IMG/VR virus record: IMGVR_UViG_3300043411_002072
Location: 1 to 27,358 of that record
Reading direction: 5' to 3' (one strand)
DNA length: 27,358 nucleotides
Source: a virus
How positions within the stretch are numbered: the first letter of the stretch is position 1; the number at the start of each line of letters is the position of its first letter. Shown one piece after another: positions 6,647 through 17,421 of this stretch. The notes under the pieces were generated by a model that saw only the letters and a program-made list of their open reading frames with translations, made no database searches and was not told the DNA's origin. The position numbers and the translations under genes were made by a program.

Positions 6647-9600
6647 CTAAATTTCAATTATCTGATTATCTTTATTGTAAACATACAGTCTTATTCCAGA
6701 AGTAGAACGAATAGATGCGAATCCAATATTATTTACATCAGATAAACGACCCAAAAATACTGTTTTATTCTCAAAAGACGAAGCTTCAAGAGCAAATTTA
6801 ATAGATTGATTTTTCAAAGTTAATTTACAAAGCAATCCTCCTCCTGTGTTAAATACATTTTGTACTTCTTTAAAATAAGCAACGTTAGCTACCGCCTGCG
6901 CCGCAATATAAGCAAATATAAAGCTAAATTTAACAGTTAAAACAGAATAATCTTTATTAACAGAGTAAGACAAAGAAGATTTATTCTCGGAAAATGCATA
7001 ATCAATGCTTAAATTATTTAACTCATTAAGCGAATAATATTCGATGCTATACCAAGAATCGCCAGTGTAATTTTGCAAATCAATTTCTTTTAGGGTTTCC
7101 GCCGAATTAAACGCAATTAAATTGTTAGAAGTGGAAATTGGGTCATTAAAAGAGCCACGATCTAACAAGTCATACTTTTTCGTATTATGTTTAATGCAAA
7201 ATAGAGAATATTCATTATTATCTACTTCAGCAATAGAAATAATTTTGAATAACTTTTGTTCCGTATTGTCTAAGGCGTTCTCAATCAAAAATGGCGTCGA
7301 AGATACTATTCTTGTAAAATAACCAAAGTTATAAGTCGTATCGAAATATACTCTATTGGTATTATTTTCAATTCGCGATATTCTTAATTCAACGACGTCG
7401 CTTTTTATTGAATTATCAAGATCTGCATCTGAAACACTTGACAAATTATCTAAATCTTGAGAAGAAAGAGTTGTCCCATTAAAAATAAATTTAATAATTG
7501 AACCGTCAAGATTCAAATTTAGTTTGCGATCAACAGTAATGTAGCTATTATCGTAATCAACCGAAGTAACGCGGCCCTGTAAGGTCGAATCGTTCTTTCC
7601 TTGGTCTTCAATTTGAATAATGTCACTTGGTTTTAGCGCGATTCCTTGCAAGTCTGTTGCGAAACTAACAGTTTGATTTTCAAATCGGTTTGTTGCCAAA
7701 AGCCACTCGCCAATTCTTCTGGCTTGCCCTCTCGAAGTTATTCCAAAACCTAAAATCTCTTTAGAAATAATCCCATAATCTTTAATAAGAGCAGAATCTT
7801 CAACGACTTCAACTTCATCTTTATAATTTTGGAATTTGTCTCTGTAAATTACTTTTGCTACTGTATAATTTCCATCTAAACTGCCATTAGAATAAGTAAA
7901 TAGACCATTTTTAACATTAGTATTATTAAACAGATAAGAGATTGGCTTGTTTACATCTATTGTTGCCGTTATTAGGTTATTCTTGTAGTATGTTAATCCT
8001 CTAAAAATAGAAGAAAAATCGTTTAAAAGTTTCAAACATTCTGTTTCGTTGTCAATATAGACATTAGCCGAAAATCTGTTTTCAACAGGATCGCGATAAT
8101 TTAGAGTTCGTGGCGCACACTGCCCAATTGATCCTTTCGCGACAACGGCTTCGTCGAAAATCGGCGCGTTAATAATCTCTCGCGCAAAAGTTCCAGCCGA
8201 TTCGGCGCCAGTCTCATTTTCTTTCAACCAAGTTAAACAAAAAGACTTAGCAGAAGCCTCGCTATTCTTTTGTGAATTCTTAATTTGATTAGTTATGTCG
8301 CGAGAAGTGTCATTAAGAACATTCTCTTCAGCAAATCTAGTAAATAAATCTCCACTCGTCTCTCTTTCAAACAAGAAACGTGGCCCAAAATCATTAATTA
8401 ACCTAACAGCAAAATAAGAATCGTATTCTGTAATACCCCAGATTATCTTTTTATAGATCTTATTAACAATTTCTCCATCATTTGTTATATCAGACAAGAA
8501 TATCAAAGAATTATGACTACCGCCGTTTTGTGACGCGGCCGATGTGGTTCCAACGGCAGGCGGATATTGCGCTCTAAATTGGTCAATTGTTCTAAAATTC
8601 TTTGTTACTAATATAGTATTCTTTAACGTAGTAGAATACTCGAAATTATCTGGTAAATACTTAATTGGTTCTTTATTTTTGACTAATTCGTCGCAATGTT
8701 TGGCAATTTTATACAATTCCCACTTGTTTAAGTCTTTTTCGCTAATACTGCCATTTCCTACGCCATAACGACTGTTTGTGGTAATGTCGTAATAAATCCA
8801 AGCAGGATTATCTGTCCACTGCAAAAACTTAGAGAATGTTCCGTCCCAATTTCCATTATATTCTTTTGCTTCAGGATCATAATTGGATGGAATTTTAATT
8901 TTTAATAACTTCAAATCAAAAGACCTTTGGGGTTCTTGGTTAAAGTGACGCGAACTTACAGCAGATCGAACAATAGCAGAAAAAGGATAAGTAAAACTTC
9001 CACGCGACTTAATTCTTTCAACAATAGCTGAAACGGAGAATTCCTTGAATTTAGACGGTTCGGAAGCGCCGATTTTTTTATTCAACGAATACACTTTTAC
9101 ATAAGAATTATTACTAAAATCTAATCCTTGATCGACTTTTAATGTAATTTCTTTTACATATCCAGACTTAGACGTCCCATAAACAGAAACCAAGACAATA
9201 TACCTTGAATCAGAAGCGTCTTGATTAACTTCAATGGCAAAAACTAAAGCAGTATCAACCGTATTGCCTTTATTAGTATCGTATAGTTGATCTATTTTAA
9301 TTTGGACAGCAATTTCATCGGCATACTTATTTTTAATCTTATGAGAAAACTCTTGGCAATTTAACTTAGCAGCATCAAGTTCACTAATTAAATCTTTAAT
9401 TTTATCAAACTTACCCTCTTTTCCAACTAGATAATTTTGATAATCTAAAGAATTATTAGCAACAGCTTGGGCAGACAAAGAAGAGCCTTCTTTCTTAATA
9501 AAAACCAAACTATTCGTTTTTAGGCTAGCGTCTCCGTCTCCAAAATTATATCTTTTTTCATTAAGATACATCTTTTGGCCATATCTAAAAACAGTAGACG

Positions 9601-9922
9601 GATAATCAAATTTTCTATTAGGCATCTCTTCGCCATTAGAAATATTAAATCCAGCAGTAACAAAGTTTAATTTATTTAATCTTGAATCAAGAATTGGCAC
9701 TTCATTGTAATAAACTCCTTTGCCCAAAGATAAATTGTCTGTAGCGCTTTCTTGTTCGCTTGCAATATATTTTAGAACAGACCCTTCTTTGTCTACCAAC
9801 CCTTCAATTGGCCCTTCACAGACCAAATCTGTAGCAAGCAAGACCTCATTGCTTTCGAGTTTGAGGTTCGCGCCAGCAGTTGCTTGAAGCTGAGCTGTCG
9901 AAACAGATAAAACTTTAGTCAT
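6647..9922 (-). CDS. J: Lambda gpJ-like central tail-tip / host-specificity protein
   Basis: The 1091-residue product is close to lambda gpJ in length (1132). Family signatures lie in the expected order. Near the N-terminus is the LVCEGPIEGLVD motif (about residues 33-44). At about 370-390 is the AWIYYDITTNSRYGVGNG block, which matches the gpJ-family 'yDlltn-ryGlG' pattern. At about 725-775 are ITSRGQARRIGEWLL, FENQTVSFATDL and LKPSDIIQIED, the hallmark of the phage-tail_3 region. gpJ homologues form the trimeric hub and tip of siphovirus tails, and their variable C-terminus contacts the receptor. The last 250 residues here do not resemble lambda's and are probably the host-specific part; one stretch (FSFIFAYIAAQAVANVAYF) is unusually hydrophobic. 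The start codon follows the gpI stop directly (TAAATG), which suggests translational coupling. The stop is TAG. Confidence 0.93.
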   Translation of the reverse strand: MTKVLSVSTAQLQATAGANLKLESNEVLLATDLVCEGPIEGLVDKEGSVLKYIASEQESATDNLSLGKGVYYNEVPILDSRLNKLNFVTAGFNISNGEEMPNRKFDYPSTVFRYGQKMYLNEKRYNFGDGDASLKTNSLVFIKKEGSSLSAQAVANNSLDYQNYLVGKEGKFDKIKDLISELDAAKLNCQEFSHKIKNKYADEIAVQIKIDQLYDTNKGNTVDTALVFAIEVNQDASDSRYIVLVSVYGTSKSGYVKEITLKVDQGLDFSNNSYVKVYSLNKKIGASEPSKFKEFSVSAIVERIKSRGSFTYPFSAIVRSAVSSRHFNQEPQRSFDLKLLKIKIPSNYDPEAKEYNGNWDGTFSKFLQWTDNPAWIYYDITTNSRYGVGNGSISEKDLNKWELYKIAKHCDELVKNKEPIKYLPDNFEYSTTLKNTILVTKNFRTIDQFRAQYPPAVGTTSAASQNGGSHNSLIFLSDITNDGEIVNKIYKKIIWGITEYDSYFAVRLINDFGPRFLFERETSGDLFTRFAEENVLNDTSRDITNQIKNSQKNSEASAKSFCLTWLKENETGAESAGTFAREIINAPIFDEAVVAKGSIGQCAPRTLNYRDPVENRFSANVYIDNETECLKLLNDFSSIFRGLTYYKNNLITATIDVNKPISYLFNNTNVKNGLFTYSNGSLDGNYTVAKVIYRDKFQNYKDEVEVVEDSALIKDYGIISKEILGFGITSRGQARRIGEWLLATNRFENQTVSFATDLQGIALKPSDIIQIEDQGKNDSTLQGRVTSVDYDNSYITVDRKLNLNLDGSIIKFIFNGTTLSSQDLDNLSSVSDADLDNSIKSDVVELRISRIENNTNRVYFDTTYNFGYFTRIVSSTPFLIENALDNTEQKLFKIISIAEVDNNEYSLFCIKHNTKKYDLLDRGSFNDPISTSNNLIAFNSAETLKEIDLQNYTGDSWYSIEYYSLNELNNLSIDYAFSENKSSLSYSVNKDYSVLTVKFSFIFAYIAAQAVANVAYFKEVQNVFNTGGGLLCKLTLKNQSIKFALEASSFENKTVFLGRLSDVNNIGFASIRSTSGIRLYVYNKDNQIIEI

Positions 9923-10492
9923 TTAATTCGGTTTGTAAAAACCATCTGGTCCGTAATTTTGAGAATAATCATAATAAGCTGAAATATTTGTGTCACTATT
10001 CTCTAAAACTTGATTAACACGAATATCATTTGCAACAACAGCACTGCCAACACGCAATCTGCCGTATCCTAAAGGCACAACAATGTTTCTATTTAATACA
10101 TTTCTGACTCCGCCCAAAATAGACGAATTAGTTTTAACATCTTTTGGCGCCTTTGGACTTAAAACGATCGACAAAACAACAGAAAGTGCGACTAAAACCA
10201 ATCCAGCGACAATTAAATAGGCTGCGGCGCCACCTTGTAAAATCGGCAAAATCTTTACCTCTTTTTTATTCTTTAATATATTTTTGCTCCTGATTAAGTG
10301 CGCTGGCATCAATTTATCATCTATATAAACAACAAAATGAGAAACAACTTTGGTAATATCAGAAAAATGTCTACTAATTTGTTCTCCGTTAGCCTCTAAT
10401 GCCTCAAATATTTCCATGACAGATTCGACTTCAAGCTTATGTTTTGTGCCGAAAGTCTTACCAAATAGTCCTTCTAGTTGAATTGCTATCAT
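9923..10492 (-). CDS. I: Lambda gpI-like tail assembly protein
   Basis: The 189-residue product has the layout of lambda gpI homologues. An N-terminal ubiquitin-like half (about 1-82) ends in HFVVYIDDKLMP and EVKILPILQGG. A strongly hydrophobic stretch follows (about 89-111, AYLIVAGLVLVALSVVLSIV). The short C-terminal segment contains NIVVPLGYGRLRVGSAVV, the 'PLGYGR-vGS-v' signature found at the gpI end in many phages. Lambda gpI is needed for tail-tip assembly together with K, L and J, and the gene sits in the canonical K-I-J order. Its start overlaps the gpK-like stop (ATGA), and its TAA abuts the gpJ ATG, so the three genes are tightly coupled. No Shine-Dalgarno sequence is seen upstream. 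Confidence 0.9.
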   Translation of the reverse strand: MIAIQLEGLFGKTFGTKHKLEVESVMEIFEALEANGEQISRHFSDITKVVSHFVVYIDDKLMPAHLIRSKNILKNKKEVKILPILQGGAAAYLIVAGLVLVALSVVLSIVLSPKAPKDVKTNSSILGGVRNVLNRNIVVPLGYGRLRVGSAVVANDIRVNQVLENSDTNISAYYDYSQNYGPDGFYKPN

Positions 10493-10806
10493 GAATTGAA
10501 ATAAAATTCATCTTGCTTTACACTATATAACAACATAGGCAAACAAGACCATTTTTGGTTTTCTAAATCCCAATCTGAAAAACCTTTTAGATCAATATGT
10601 TTAGGATGACTATGAAAAAGCACTAAATCGTCTAAACTTGTATATTCTTTAGGGTTAATTAGAAAATAGTCTTTTGAATCAGGATGTATGTTTTTCTTTT
10701 GATGAAACTGATTTTTTTTATCTATAAAGCCAACAATTTCAATATCAGAAGCAACAGATAAATCTTTAAGTTCAGCTAATAACTTATCCGGGAAGTTTAT
10801 AGTCAT
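10489..10806 (-). CDS. K: Lambda gpK-like protein, JAMM (Mov34) domain only
   Basis: The 105-residue product carries a JAMM-type metalloprotease motif: Glu23 in the first strand (DIEIVGF), then His65-Ser-His67-Pro, Ser77 and Asp80. The HIHP/HP-F-INP-EY segment between them is typical of the family. Spacing from the second His to Ser is nine residues rather than the usual seven, so the loop is longer by two, but all ligands remain. Lambda gpK joins a JAMM domain to an NlpC/P60 peptidase domain. The second domain is absent here, and no NlpC/P60 gene is visible nearby. The role is probably tail-tip assembly or processing. The gene overlaps the end of the gpL homologue by 23 bases and the gpI start by four. 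Confidence 0.88.
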   Translation of the reverse strand: MTINFPDKLLAELKDLSVASDIEIVGFIDKKNQFHQKKNIHPDSKDYFLINPKEYTSLDDLVLFHSHPKHIDLKGFSDWDLENQKWSCLPMLLYSVKQDEFYFNS

Positions 10807-12583
10807 AAGTTACCGTTCCGGGAAATGCGCCAAAAGGTAAAAATCCTAAATCCTTAAATCTTAAACTGCACCCATTTAATTTTCTTGAGCATTTATCTTC
10901 TACCCAATCTTTTGTGTGTAAAAATGGACTTTTGCCGCTTGAAAATTCAGAATTAAGCACAAAAAAGCGAGAAGGAGGTTCGTTGTTTTTATTAATGAAT
11001 CTTTCGTTGAAATCGTAATCAATTGCTGTATCAATTTTAACAAAGTCGCCGCGAGAATAAGCTGTTGTAGGACTGTAATCTCCTTTGTAATTCATCGTTT
11101 GCATTCCGTAACTCGATCCATTTGAGAACGGAACAGTTGCCGGACCCATAAAAATCTTGTCATTTTCATCTGCAATCGGCACACCCAAATCGCCATCATT
11201 TGGATAACTTGCGAAAAAATCGTTACTCTTTTTAACTTGATAAGTTGTTATTTCTTCTGTAGTTGTTATTCCATATTTTGTAGCAAGATAACTTGTAATT
11301 CCTTGAACTTTTTTCTGAGAAAGTAATTCGTTAAAAATGATTATCTCGTAGACAACAATATCACTTAAAGCAGTAGCGGCTAAATTCAATCCCATGTTGT
11401 TTGGCGAATTGGTAAAACCAGTGCTTTTCGCAACAATAGATCCATTTTTATAAAAAACAGATTCAGCAGAAGAAGAAGTCGGCGCAACTAATGAATAAAT
11501 ATTTGGAGTATCTATTAAAGGAGAAATATTATCTAGTCTGCTTAAATAAGAGCTATTTGATCGACAGCCATCTTGACTTTTCGTTACACCGTCTCCATAA
11601 CCTACAAACCAACTTTTATCAGCAACACCAAGACCCATTCTTGTATTTGTTCTGGCACCCTTTTTTACCATCTCCGAAACATAAAAGACTGTAAAATTAG
11701 TATTATAATTATTAGTAATTTGTAAGGTATCGGCGACTCCTTCTTTCGATATACCAAACAAGATACCTGTAATGCCATTCATTCTTCCTGAATTGACATA
11801 TTTTTTTGGACTACCTGTGATAGCAATAGTAAGAGGCGCGGCAGATTGATCGACCCAAGCAGTTAATTTTGGCCAAGTTCTATCTACATAATATACTGAT
11901 CCAGTATAAGTAGTACCAGCAGTAGACATTAAATGCAAAGAAAGAGTAATAAGATTTTCAGCAGCAGCATCTGTTGCGTCTGCTAAAGTAGTATATCTTG
12001 TTGGGCGAATTTGGACTTTTGCGCCGTCCCAACCACTAATTTTGCCGTAATTACAGCCACATCCGCGATACTGCCATTGACACGTATCATTATAAACTTT
12101 TCTGGCAGGAGCTGTTTGGCCATCAATATCCATTGTATTGGCCAATTCAAATTCTACTTTTTCTTTGCTAGCTGAATTTTTCTTATGAATTACATAAGTA
12201 TCAACAGAAATAAAGTCTACAAAATTATTAACACCAAGTAAATTCTTATTAGCTTCTCCAAAGTTTTCGGCGTCTAGGTCTTTCGCCAAAATCTTCTTCC
12301 TGTAAAATCTCTTTCCTAAAAGATCGTTTCTGTCTTTTATAAAATTATTTATGTAGTTATTAACATTAGCAATAGAAAGAGTCGGCCGATTCTGTTTTCC
12401 ATCTGATGTATATTCAAGATTACTAATCTCGGAAGGAATATATAAATAAGACTTGCCAGCAAAAACAATATCAGAAGTCAGGTTCTTGCTGCCATGAAAA
12501 CGAAAGTATCCCTCGAAATCATTTAATTTAATTTCAAATAGATCAAGTATCTCGGTATTCTTTAGTAGATGTAAATCAGACAT
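10784..12583 (-). CDS. L: Lambda gpL-like Fe-S tail-tip protein with an inserted ConA-like domain
   Basis: The 599-residue product is about 2.5 times the length of lambda gpL (232). The N-terminal 1-167 matches gpL in pattern: NRPTLSIANVNNYI, LLGKRFYRKKIL and LANTMDIDGQTAPARKVYNDTC. The first cysteine pair is Cys168 with Cys175 or Cys177 (TCQWQYRGCGCNYG). The second pair is Cys565/Cys572 (DKCSRKLNGCSLRF), followed by LPFGAFPG at the end. In lambda gpL the equivalent cysteines bind an iron-sulfur cluster and lie close together. Here about 388 residues separate them. The inserted part includes a ConA/LamG-like sandwich (about 185-442) ending in EIIIFNELLSQ and SYLATKYGI. A linker (about 443-564) contains the Y-GDFVKI pattern seen in longer gpL homologues. 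The gene follows the largest gap in the window (34 bases). A weak purine run (AAAGAGAGAAAAATAA) precedes the ATG. Confidence 0.9.
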   Translation of the reverse strand: MSDLHLLKNTEILDLFEIKLNDFEGYFRFHGSKNLTSDIVFAGKSYLYIPSEISNLEYTSDGKQNRPTLSIANVNNYINNFIKDRNDLLGKRFYRKKILAKDLDAENFGEANKNLLGVNNFVDFISVDTYVIHKKNSASKEKVEFELANTMDIDGQTAPARKVYNDTCQWQYRGCGCNYGKISGWDGAKVQIRPTRYTTLADATDAAAENLITLSLHLMSTAGTTYTGSVYYVDRTWPKLTAWVDQSAAPLTIAITGSPKKYVNSGRMNGITGILFGISKEGVADTLQITNNYNTNFTVFYVSEMVKKGARTNTRMGLGVADKSWFVGYGDGVTKSQDGCRSNSSYLSRLDNISPLIDTPNIYSLVAPTSSSAESVFYKNGSIVAKSTGFTNSPNNMGLNLAATALSDIVVYEIIIFNELLSQKKVQGITSYLATKYGITTTEEITTYQVKKSNDFFASYPNDGDLGVPIADENDKIFMGPATVPFSNGSSYGMQTMNYKGDYSPTTAYSRGDFVKIDTAIDYDFNERFINKNNEPPSRFFVLNSEFSSGKSPFLHTKDWVEDKCSRKLNGCSLRFKDLGFLPFGAFPGTVTYDYKLPG

Positions 12584-12617: not shown

Positions 12618-14141
12618 TTAGGTTCCTTTAGCGTAAACATTCATAAATGGATGAGAAATGTTTAATGGAAACAAAATAGCATTAGACGAGTTAGTTATTT
12701 GTAAATCCGAAGAAGATTTAATGAATAAATTCCTATAAGTATAGGCCAAAGATTCAATTATTTGTTTTGATGTTTTTCGCATTGAAGGCTCGTCGAAAGC
12801 AGAACCATGAAGATAGTCAAATAAATACATTGGAACAGTAGCCGTATTATTGTTGTATCCTTCATTTCCTAATGCAATATTATAGGTCTTTTTATCACTT
12901 AAATCGGATAACGGATTAAAAGGAAGAATGCTGGAAAAAGTTAATTGGCCATTAATTCTTGTTTCAAATACTAGTTCTTCATATGGTTTATTTTGATATG
13001 TGCCGACTTTTCCATTGAAATACGCAAACATCTCAACAAAGAACATAGAAAATGCGTCATATGTTACCGTTGTCGATCCATTGTAAACAGAAACTGGAGT
13101 TGGTGTTGTTACGGCTGCTAAAGAATTTGATGTAGAACCAAGATTAAATAATTTAGTATTACTAAAAGCTGCTCCTAAAAGATCTGGCGTAAAAATTGTT
13201 GTAACTTGATTCGGATTAGCTACATTAGACAACTTTCTGGCTTTCGATGTTTTTGTCCAACTGTCAAAATCTGTAAAAAAGCTCGACTCTGAAATGTTAA
13301 AGCTATTTGCTTCGTTAGAACTTCTTGCCAAAAAGCTAGGATTATTCAAATAAGATCCAGCAAAAACCGATTTTATTACATTAGTGTCTCGATTCGAGGT
13401 ATTGCGAAAAGTGTAGCTTGGGACGCTAAAGTTATAAAATTTAGTATTAAAACCTGAATCAACCCAACCTTGTGAAACCGAACTTGCCTCGATAAATTTA
13501 TGGACCGCATTTACTTGAATTAGCATGTCGCTAAAAGTCGTCGCGTTTACTGCACCATCTTTTGCCAACGCGAAAACAAGAATGGTATAAGACGGCGATT
13601 TGACTGGAGTAATATCGAATGCTTGTTTTATTTTCTTTGCTTGCGCTAATTCGTAAAACTTTAATCCATTAGACGTAACTATTTTAAGGTCGTTCGTTGC
13701 CGAGTTGCTCGTTAAAACCATTGAGCTTGAACCAGAATTATCTGTCCAAGTTGAAGAAACGTCTCCTGCCGAACCCGTTAGATTATCTGTTCTAAGTCTA
13801 AAAATTAAATTATTACCAGTAAACGTATGTCTTCTTAAATTGAGAAAAATATTTGGCGTATAACCTAAAAAGTTAAATTTTCCTGCGCTTGCTGCTGTGC
13901 CAGTTTCGACAACTTGAACAGTTTGGTTCGCTTGCGAAGACGTTTGTCCGCCAGCTCCTTGAACAACAGATTCGACGCTTGTTGTTTTTGCTATAAAATT
14001 TGATTGAATTGTGCCTTCTGCTGTTTCGGTCTCTTTAGAAACAATAACTTTGGTAACAACGGTCATGTCATTCGATGCAACTGCTGCCGCAGAAGTCGTA
14101 TCGATTACCGTTTTTGTCGAAACTGTTGTTTTTTGTGCCAT
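12618..14141 (-). CDS. Tail-tip structural protein with a ConA-like domain
   Basis: I do not recognise a named family for this 507-residue product. The first 90 residues are rich in Thr, Val, Ser and Ala (TTVSTKTVIDTTSAAAVAS) with no hydrophobic signal, so they may form an extended linker or attachment strand. From about residue 95 the sequence reads like a ConA/LamG-type sandwich: FRLRTDNLTGSAGDVSSTWTDNSGS, then LKFYELAQ, SYTILVFALAKDG and YEELVFETRINGQ. The closing DEPSMRKTSKQIIESLAYTYRNL is a variant of the helix-turn that ends such domains (compare SYLATKYGI in the gpL homologue). It has no cysteines or enzyme motif that I can identify. Its place between the gpM and gpL homologues suggests a tip-associated, glycan-facing subunit. 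The start follows the upstream stop within one base (TAAAATG). Confidence 0.65.
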   Translation of the reverse strand: MAQKTTVSTKTVIDTTSAAAVASNDMTVVTKVIVSKETETAEGTIQSNFIAKTTSVESVVQGAGGQTSSQANQTVQVVETGTAASAGKFNFLGYTPNIFLNLRRHTFTGNNLIFRLRTDNLTGSAGDVSSTWTDNSGSSSMVLTSNSATNDLKIVTSNGLKFYELAQAKKIKQAFDITPVKSPSYTILVFALAKDGAVNATTFSDMLIQVNAVHKFIEASSVSQGWVDSGFNTKFYNFSVPSYTFRNTSNRDTNVIKSVFAGSYLNNPSFLARSSNEANSFNISESSFFTDFDSWTKTSKARKLSNVANPNQVTTIFTPDLLGAAFSNTKLFNLGSTSNSLAAVTTPTPVSVYNGSTTVTYDAFSMFFVEMFAYFNGKVGTYQNKPYEELVFETRINGQLTFSSILPFNPLSDLSDKKTYNIALGNEGYNNNTATVPMYLFDYLHGSAFDEPSMRKTSKQIIESLAYTYRNLFIKSSSDLQITNSSNAILFPLNISHPFMNVYAKGT

Positions 14142-15552: not shown

Positions 15553-17421
15553 TTATTCTCTAACAAAGGATATTACAGTATTAAACAATGAATCTTGAGT
15601 AAAATGATTTTTGAACTCAACAAATTTTGCACTTATTGAATGATTGTCATAAAAGTCATAAGAATGATTCCATTCGGGGCAATAAACAGAGATGGTTTTG
15701 TTATACGGTTGCGCCAAAGTATAGTTAAAAACTTTGTAACCAGCTTTGTCATCTAAAAATTTCAGAATCGCAAAAGCTTCGCGCAAAGTTCTTTTCGTGA
15801 ATTGCAATTCAAACTCTAATTCATTATAATTTATTCCATCTTTTTCGTATTCTCTTGTAGAATTTTTGAAATCATTAACAATGTATCTTGTTTTAGTCTC
15901 AACAGCATAATTAATGTCTGATTTGAAATAGAAGTCGCGAGTAAAATGTGAATTTGCACCAGTTGGGCTATTTGCTGCCGTGATTACTGTTGATGTCGAA
16001 TAAGGTATGTTCGCGCCAGTATAAAAATAATATCCTCTATGATTAAATGTCTCAGAATTGTAATAAAAGACATCATTATAAGTAAAATCGTAGATTGTAG
16101 AAGAATAAGTCCGACAATAAGTATTATCAATTACTACATTCATCCCTTCATAGTTTAGAATACTAGGATAAAGAGACTCTGCTGTTATTTTTATTGAATT
16201 TATATTATTATAATTCGTCGTGTGCGAAAGATCGGTAAAATACAAATCCATGTTTCTCTTATAAGGAGAAAATAAATTAGTTCTTATTGCGCCGAAACCT
16301 TCATAAACGCTCTTTTTCTCTCTTTCTGGCGCATTTTCAAAATAAGTAATTAAAGCTTTTGCTTGTCTATCTGTTAATCCATCAAAAGATAAATTGAATA
16401 CAGCATTTATGGCATTTACTCCGTTTACTGTATTTGTTTTATATCCGTCACCAAATTTAAGCGGCGACATCTTGGACGTGAATGACGCCGAAGTCCCATA
16501 AGTTAAAGAAAAAAGATGATCAAGAGTCTTTGTCCAATAACTTTGTCCAGTAAATGAAACCGGTGAGTATTGTTCTCCAACTGGCACATCATTTCGAGCA
16601 AAATACAGCCCTCCTAAGTCTGAATATTTTTCAAATAAGTATTTTTCATAGTAATCAATTTCTGTAGAAGGTAAAACACCAGTAAAATGAATAATTTCGT
16701 GAAAATTTATTCCCTGACTTGTCGTATTTTGAGCCAGTTTTAATTCGCCAGACTTCCAAAAAGGGCTGTATGCATAAGAACCAATGTCAAAACCATTTTG
16801 GCGCAAAGTTAAAACGCCTGTGTCTTGAACCACCGTTAAAAAAACAGGTTGGCCGTATGACGTTGAAACAGCGTTGTATTGTCGGCCGTCTACCCAATAA
16901 ATACTACCAGTTTGACCGGGCGAAGGTTGTGGCACGTTTTCGCCAGAAATCTTAATCGTTCCGTCTCCAGAATTTCCTGTCCCAAATTGAATTATTTGTT
17001 GCGCGACATTTTGTTCTACTTCCAAAACCTCAAAAGCCAAAAACAAAGTTCTCGTTGGTGAAGCAAAACCTGTTCCGCTTAAAGTTTGTGCATTATAAAA
17101 TGTAATATAGTCGTCATTAAAATTAACATAAGGTTTAATTACATTGGCAGCATAGTCTTCATTTATGTTAAAGAGATTGCCGCTTCCCTCTACTTTGTTT
17201 AACCAACCAGTTACATAAAAATTAGAATCTAATACAAAATCATCAAGAACATCATTATTGAACCAAGTTGTTAATCCGGTTTGTCCGAGACCAGTAAAAC
17301 TAGGAAGCCGCGAAACTCCAGTCGCCAACTGAAAATCAATTATATCATATTGCGAATACGTCGCCGTTGGATCGTATTCAAATATGTTTTTAATATTTAA
17401 GCCAGAAATCAAATAGCTCAT
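15553..17421 (-). CDS. M: Lambda gpM-like tail-tip protein with N-terminal ConA-like domain and duplicated gpM fold
   Basis: The 622-residue product is far longer than lambda gpM (109). Residues about 35-275 look like a ConA/LamG sandwich: TWFNNDVLDDF, RTLFLAFEVLEVEQN, LTLRQNGFDIGSY, and the closing EIIHFTGVLPSTEIDYYEKY. Residues about 280-430 carry the gpM pattern: FSLTYGTSASFTSK, PLKFGDGYKTN, then the strand FNLSFDGLTDRQAKALITYF. A second gpM-type unit follows at about 500-615 (ELEFELQFTKRTLREAFAIL, FLDDKAGYKVFNY, NKTISVYCPEWNHSY, SISAKFVEF). This corresponds to the lambda gpM end (FLEEHGGWKSFLW, then the cysteine-Ala-Lys-Trp strand). In lambda, gpM joins the tape-measure end to the gpL/gpJ tip. 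Here the duplication may make a larger adaptor ring. The leader is TAAAACATG. Confidence 0.85.
   Translation of the reverse strand: MSYLISGLNIKNIFEYDPTATYSQYDIIDFQLATGVSRLPSFTGLGQTGLTTWFNNDVLDDFVLDSNFYVTGWLNKVEGSGNLFNINEDYAANVIKPYVNFNDDYITFYNAQTLSGTGFASPTRTLFLAFEVLEVEQNVAQQIIQFGTGNSGDGTIKISGENVPQPSPGQTGSIYWVDGRQYNAVSTSYGQPVFLTVVQDTGVLTLRQNGFDIGSYAYSPFWKSGELKLAQNTTSQGINFHEIIHFTGVLPSTEIDYYEKYLFEKYSDLGGLYFARNDVPVGEQYSPVSFTGQSYWTKTLDHLFSLTYGTSASFTSKMSPLKFGDGYKTNTVNGVNAINAVFNLSFDGLTDRQAKALITYFENAPEREKKSVYEGFGAIRTNLFSPYKRNMDLYFTDLSHTTNYNNINSIKITAESLYPSILNYEGMNVVIDNTYCRTYSSTIYDFTYNDVFYYNSETFNHRGYYFYTGANIPYSTSTVITAANSPTGANSHFTRDFYFKSDINYAVETKTRYIVNDFKNSTREYEKDGINYNELEFELQFTKRTLREAFAILKFLDDKAGYKVFNYTLAQPYNKTISVYCPEWNHSYDFYDNHSISAKFVEFKNHFTQDSLFNTVISFVRE

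Follow-up and report, generated by a model that had tools for sequence, protein, structure and literature searches.

A gpL-like tail hub protein with a predicted ConA/LamG-type lectin domain between its iron-sulfur cysteine pairs

The metagenomic virus record IMGVR_UViG_3300043411_002072 (27,358 bases, analysed whole and called the window here) encodes a gpL-like tail hub protein of 599 residues, in which the two halves of the lambda-type 4Fe-4S site are separated by a long insert containing a domain predicted with high confidence to be a ConA/LamG-type sandwich (residues about 189-438). The gene occupies positions 10784-12583 (stop codon included) of the minus strand as a single unbroken ORF of 599 codons, while stops block the plus strand over this interval; the other tail genes and the protein segments located below are also on the minus strand. 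We consider it likely that the cluster is kept, that the lectin points outward from the tail tip, and that it binds sugars during adsorption. Homology, cysteine invariance, the predicted fold, the presence of an insertion hotspot and fast evolution were all found in the analysis, and support this explanation.

The protein matches the Pfam family PF05100 (Phage_tail_L) at 1.2e-36, with 126.5 bits against a curated cut-off of 25, and PHROG and phmmer searches give the same assignment. The Pfam match falls in two stretches, residues 26-181 corresponding to profile positions 7-159 and residues about 557-591 to positions 170-204, and the family is matched by all 50 aligned relatives. This two-part match, with the phmmer alignment to lambda gpL (8iyk_L), bears out the original prediction of a gpL framework on both sides of an insert. 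The N-terminal part (residues 1-166; 12086-12583) is the HDI domain, a tail-tube-like β-sandwich, its extent being based on PF05100, on a Foldseek match to 8iyk_L and on the domain limits in lambda, where the domain sits in the last tail ring, beneath gpM (PMC10721106). It is followed by the first half of the 4Fe-4S domain, an invariant motif (residues 167-181, TCQWQYRGCGCNYGK; 12041-12085). The second half, together with the C-terminus, is formed by residues 561-599 (EDKCSRKLNGCSLRF...PFGAFPG; 10787-10903), which carry the match to profile positions 170-204.

In lambda gpL the cluster ligands are Cys173, 182, 205 and 212, and the 4Fe-4S domain lies on the outer surface (PMC10721106). In a phmmer search of the PDB, C168/C177 and C565/C572 fall on the cysteines of 8iyk_L and of the F2-pyocin BHP, and a profile search of the PDB using 50 sequences repeats this alignment. 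By alignment and invariance, Cys168 (12080-12082), Cys177 (12053-12055), Cys565 (10889-10891) and Cys572 (10868-10870) are the putative ligands corresponding to lambda Cys173, Cys182, Cys205 and Cys212, respectively, and they reproduce the C-x8-C and C-x6-C half-motifs of gpL. All four are present in each of the 36 non-redundant insert-bearing homologues and in the 14 insert-free ones. Since they are invariant over these 50 sequences with and without the insert, and the reading frame is kept, their retention goes beyond chance. The same four had been proposed as ligands together with C175, which does not fit: it is found in 22 of the 36 insert-bearing proteins, and judging from the alignment the second ligand is C177, C175 being an extra, non-conserved cysteine. 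The remaining cysteine columns are each occupied in fewer than half of these 36 proteins, with one exception: at the column of Leu543, some 22 residues before the third ligand, 30 of the 36 have an additional cysteine, which is absent in the window.

Between C177 and C565 there are 387 residues (a distance of 388, in agreement with the approximately 388 first estimated), against 21-40 in insert-free gpL. Such a separation of the pairs is not without precedent. In the hub proteins of RcGTA (gp13; PMC7296036) and of roseophage R4C (PMC10276861), the iron-binding domain is made up of two segments and the cluster is visible in the maps; as here, a domain, in their case termed oligosaccharide-binding, sits between the Fe-S cysteine pairs. 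The upper baseplate protein gp50 of JBD30 also has the C-x8-C and C-x6-C half-motifs, in which Cys147, 156, 238 and 245 coordinate a putative metal (PMC11445458). Its gap is shorter (81 residues between pairs), and the passages covered report no ConA-like lectin. These solved structures, in which a cluster or metal is seen, show that the metal site survives a long insertion between the pairs.

Most likely, then, the four cysteines still bind one 4Fe-4S cluster. An alternative is that the cluster has been lost and that the cysteines have been retained to bind zinc or some other metal, or to form disulfides, with the two halves rebuilding no 4Fe-4S site. It would fit the wording used for JBD30 gp50, where a putative metal ion, and not firmly a cluster, is assigned to the same half-motifs, and also the low confidence of our structural model at the first half-site, where pLDDT is below 50 at residues 152-165 and at 172-179, near the first cysteine pair. 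Nevertheless we regard it as unlikely, given that the half-motifs are the same as in lambda, whose homologues bind 4Fe-4S (PMC10721106), that R4C and RcGTA retain the cluster despite a split domain, and that none of the 36 insert-bearing homologues has lost a ligand.

The fold of the insert was predicted using AlphaFold2, run as a monomer on a 50-sequence alignment. This run (mean pLDDT 78.7, with the blocks of the insert mostly at 80-97) replaced one on 4 sequences, in which mean pLDDT was 40 and the framework was uninformative. The predicted lectin domain (residues 189-438; 11270-12019) is all-β, with strands between residues 189 and 417, followed by a helix at 423-437. A fold search had been set beforehand as the test of the lectin idea, and it returned ConA-type matches for the insert among both PDB entries and predicted viral structures. 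Against the PDB, the top Foldseek match of the model is lambda gpL (8iyk_L, E 8.4e-12), in keeping with an HDI fold. The next, at about 1e-8, are trans-sialidases and binding fragments of clostridial neurotoxins, both of which include ConA-type lectin domains, the similarity being one of fold only. Against predicted viral structures, the matches are phage proteins annotated 'Concanavalin A-like lectin', over about 240 columns and with a target TM of 0.66-0.69. Predicted structure and fold search thus agree on a two-sheet β-sandwich of the ConA/LamG-like lectin superfamily. The sandwich of about 255 residues first proposed is in this way upheld at about 189-438, and refined by the recognition of a second conserved segment behind it.

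None of the 50 members matches the Pfam lectin (ConA/LamG) models at E 0.1; the domain is accordingly called a lectin on the strength of structure prediction, and is assigned to a LamG-like fold, not to a named lectin family. In a profile search of the PDB there was a weak match to PilC (E 0.02); this minor pilin is reported to be part of a glycan-binding complex.

The second inserted segment (residues 464-560, GDY..Y..GDFVK.D..DF...FFV...W; 10904-11194) lies past the lectin and before the second cysteine pair. It is conserved in the 36 homologues, better so than the lectin. Possibly it is a small CBM5/12-like module, a guess prompted by a Y..GD.V-like motif that recurs in the split N-terminal region of the gpM-like protein described below, which was considered as such a module too; Pfam has no match for either, and an hhalign comparison of the two gave 0.3%.

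The insert and the framework have evolved at very different rates. Mean pairwise identity is 71% for the framework, 53% for residues 464-560 and 29% for the lectin. In seven pairs of sequences, dN is 3- to 34-fold higher in the lectin than in the framework, mostly 4- to 6-fold. The corresponding dN/dS values, which are rough ratios since high dS is saturated, are 0.06-0.34 for the lectin in six pairs and 0.96 in the seventh, and 0.01-0.12 for the framework. The ratio is below 1 in every pair tested, although nearly neutral in one. The lectin domain is therefore mostly under purifying selection and yet fast-changing, and such quick change would be expected of a surface that faces the host.

A ConA/LamG fold is no proof of sugar binding; some such domains bind protein, or merely form a scaffold. 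It is thus conceivable, though on balance rather unlikely, that the insert has this fold but binds no sugar, and instead acts as a spacer in the structure or offers a docking surface to another tail protein, such as the product of the 507-aa or the 468-aa ORF. ConA-like folds do serve as scaffolds elsewhere, and both ORFs, which lie between the genes for the gpM-like and gpL-like proteins, have homologues in most relatives whose region is covered. Against this, the lectin changes far more quickly than the framework does, which suits an exposed, host-facing domain better than a conserved docking surface, and a related lectin-like domain occurs in another tail protein, the gpM-like one. A host-facing lectin hence remains our preferred reading. 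The 507-aa ORF (12618-14141) adjoins the gpL gene, is kept in most relatives, and by eye looks LamG-like itself (FRLRTDN..W.DNSG). That it carries the same lectin as the gpL insert is unsupported, the hhalign profile comparison giving 0.8%.

The tail module runs, on the minus strand, from the tape measure through three ORFs to the gpM-like distal tail protein (622 aa; 15553-17421), which has two Phage_min_tail stretches (PF05939, 5e-17; PHROG 14), and on through the 468-aa and 507-aa ORFs to the gpL-like protein. Then come a gpK-like JAB protein of 105 aa (10489-10806; PHROG 30), a gpI-like tail assembly protein (9923-10492; PHROG 32, 1e-21) and a gpJ-like central hub/fibre protein (6647-9922; PHROG 31, 2e-103). 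The gpL gene thus has its usual place between gpM and gpK/gpI/gpJ, two extra ORFs separating it from gpM, and this synteny (gpM-ORF-ORF-gpL-JAB-gpI-gpJ) is kept across relatives. The gpK slot holds the 105-aa JAB-like protein only, and the start of its gene overlaps the end of the gpL gene by 23 bases. To the 3' side of gpJ there are a fibre with collagen-like repeats and then a LamG protein. A 382-aa protein at 1306-2454, distinct from the gpL-like one, has a clear Laminin_G_3 domain (1e-15), and no homologues of it were found among the ORFs of the collected gpL loci.

The gpM-like protein appears to have a lectin of its own. A second lectin-like insert at its residues 33-282 (16576-17325), preceding the Phage_min_tail stretches, aligns with the gpL lectin in hhalign with a probability of 91% (E 9e-7, 80 columns), the kinship extending over the C-terminal part. 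By eye, the flanks of this insert (EYDPTATYSQYDIIDF ... YFARNDVP) resemble a single small domain that the insert interrupts. Should the gpM-like protein be a hexamer and the gpL-like protein a trimer, as in lambda, up to nine lectins could surround the tip.

Comparison with known systems shows which parts of this arrangement are familiar. Lambda gpL (8iyk, PF05100) shares the HDI domain, the Fe-S half-motifs and the gene order M-L-K-I-J, besides being the top Foldseek match in the PDB; it has 22 residues between Cys182 and Cys205, in contrast to 387 with a lectin here, and lambda has neither a lectin in gpM nor the two ORFs that here separate M from L. The inserts of RcGTA and R4C comprise about 82 residues, that of RcGTA resembling a domain of the T4 hub protein. 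The insert in the window is of another kind, with a ConA/LamG-type domain of about 250 residues, which has ConA-type matches, and a segment of about 100. Siphophages of Gram-positive hosts offer a parallel in their evolved Dit and Tal proteins: carbohydrate-binding modules are likewise carried in loops of core tail proteins, and some have been shown to bind cells (PMC7291167). There, however, the core is Dit or Tal rather than gpL, the CBM fold is different, and no Fe-S site is involved, and so the gpL-like protein is not an evolved Dit, even though the gpM-like neighbour, the counterpart of Dit, does carry a lectin-like insert.

The precedents of RcGTA, R4C and JBD30 mean that the architecture cannot be claimed as wholly new: a sugar-binding-type domain between these cysteine pairs is already known from RcGTA and R4C. 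This reduces the novelty implied by the original prediction, which is otherwise supported as a whole. What is new, if the modelled fold is correct, is a full ConA/LamG lectin at the split site, in a tail of lambda gene order with a second lectin in the gpM-like protein. A literature search found no description of a ConA/LamG lectin in gpL, most subscription papers lying outside its scope; a recent comparison has termed the C-terminal region of gpL hypervariable (PMC13243795).

We propose that the lectin and the smaller conserved segment have been inserted in the loop that joins the two cysteine pairs of the gpL 4Fe-4S domain. The HDI domain and the flanks would rebuild a normal gpL, three copies of which would encircle the tail tip beneath the gpM ring. 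The 4Fe-4S cluster would close the base of the loop and hold the lectin as an appendage, presumably directed outward. Each tail would then have three gpL lectins, plus six more if the lectin-bearing gpM-like protein is hexameric as in lambda. These lectins may bind sugars of the envelope or capsule in the vicinity of the tail opening, and this could help to position the tip and keep it in place during the search for the final receptor by gpJ and the fibres. On this model, contact with cell-surface sugars is probably made by the tail core too, and not by the fibres alone.

A more active role can be imagined. The 4Fe-4S domain of lambda gpL rotates rigidly off the axis when the tail opens (PMC11101478), and the lectin might act as a trigger, with sugar binding pulling or restraining this domain and so coupling recognition to tail opening, the cluster being the rigid clamp. 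We hold this to be distinctly improbable.

The architecture is not peculiar to the window. As this is a metagenomic virus fragment, the insert could in principle be an assembly chimera or a recent accidental insertion in one contig. This can be regarded as refuted, since the same architecture, with the frame intact, is present in 46 further ORFs of other viral contigs. A sequence search of a phage collection found no phage with the lectin insert, and a pattern search of a prokaryotic genome collection found no prophage relatives. Among the distinct gpL ORFs, the spacing from ligand 2 to ligand 3 falls into three groups, namely 21-40 (the canonical group, 70 ORFs), 257-275 (15) and 385-525 (47, including the window), where the group sizes reflect the collection of gpL loci from viral contigs and are not frequencies in nature.

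The 257-275 group is of the S-CBS4 cyanophage type. In gp036 of Synechococcus phage S-CBS4 (L129, 1202-2599) and its relatives (L132-L157), a different insert of a comparable kind, with alanine-rich ends that are probably coiled-coil, occupies exactly the same cysteine-pair junction, with 260 residues between the pairs in gp036. Its sequence differs from that of the insert in the window, the profile comparison aligning the gpL framework only. The cysteine-pair junction of gpL is an insertion hotspot. A family that has some 390-520 residues between its ligands, with the four cysteines kept in every complete member examined, points to this loop as a favoured site for recognition modules, and to the cluster as a probable clamp able to accommodate large exposed insertions. 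This bears on what the iron-sulfur cluster, widespread in gpL, does, and would carry over to the hub of lambda-like tails the 'evolved Dit' idea, in which core tail proteins bear sugar-binding modules.

It may be added that gpL-like proteins vary elsewhere too. Two (L056, 1535-2431; L057, 9986-10882) are without any Fe-S cysteines; their HDI 'FLDSSNF' motif is followed by an insert that by eye resembles a cupredoxin (YYCTVHGNTMG). The gpL proteins of L046-L055, which have no lectin, carry an additional module of roughly 70 residues (HPWLAAKYFKVGDVVRAS...) N-terminal to the HDI domain.
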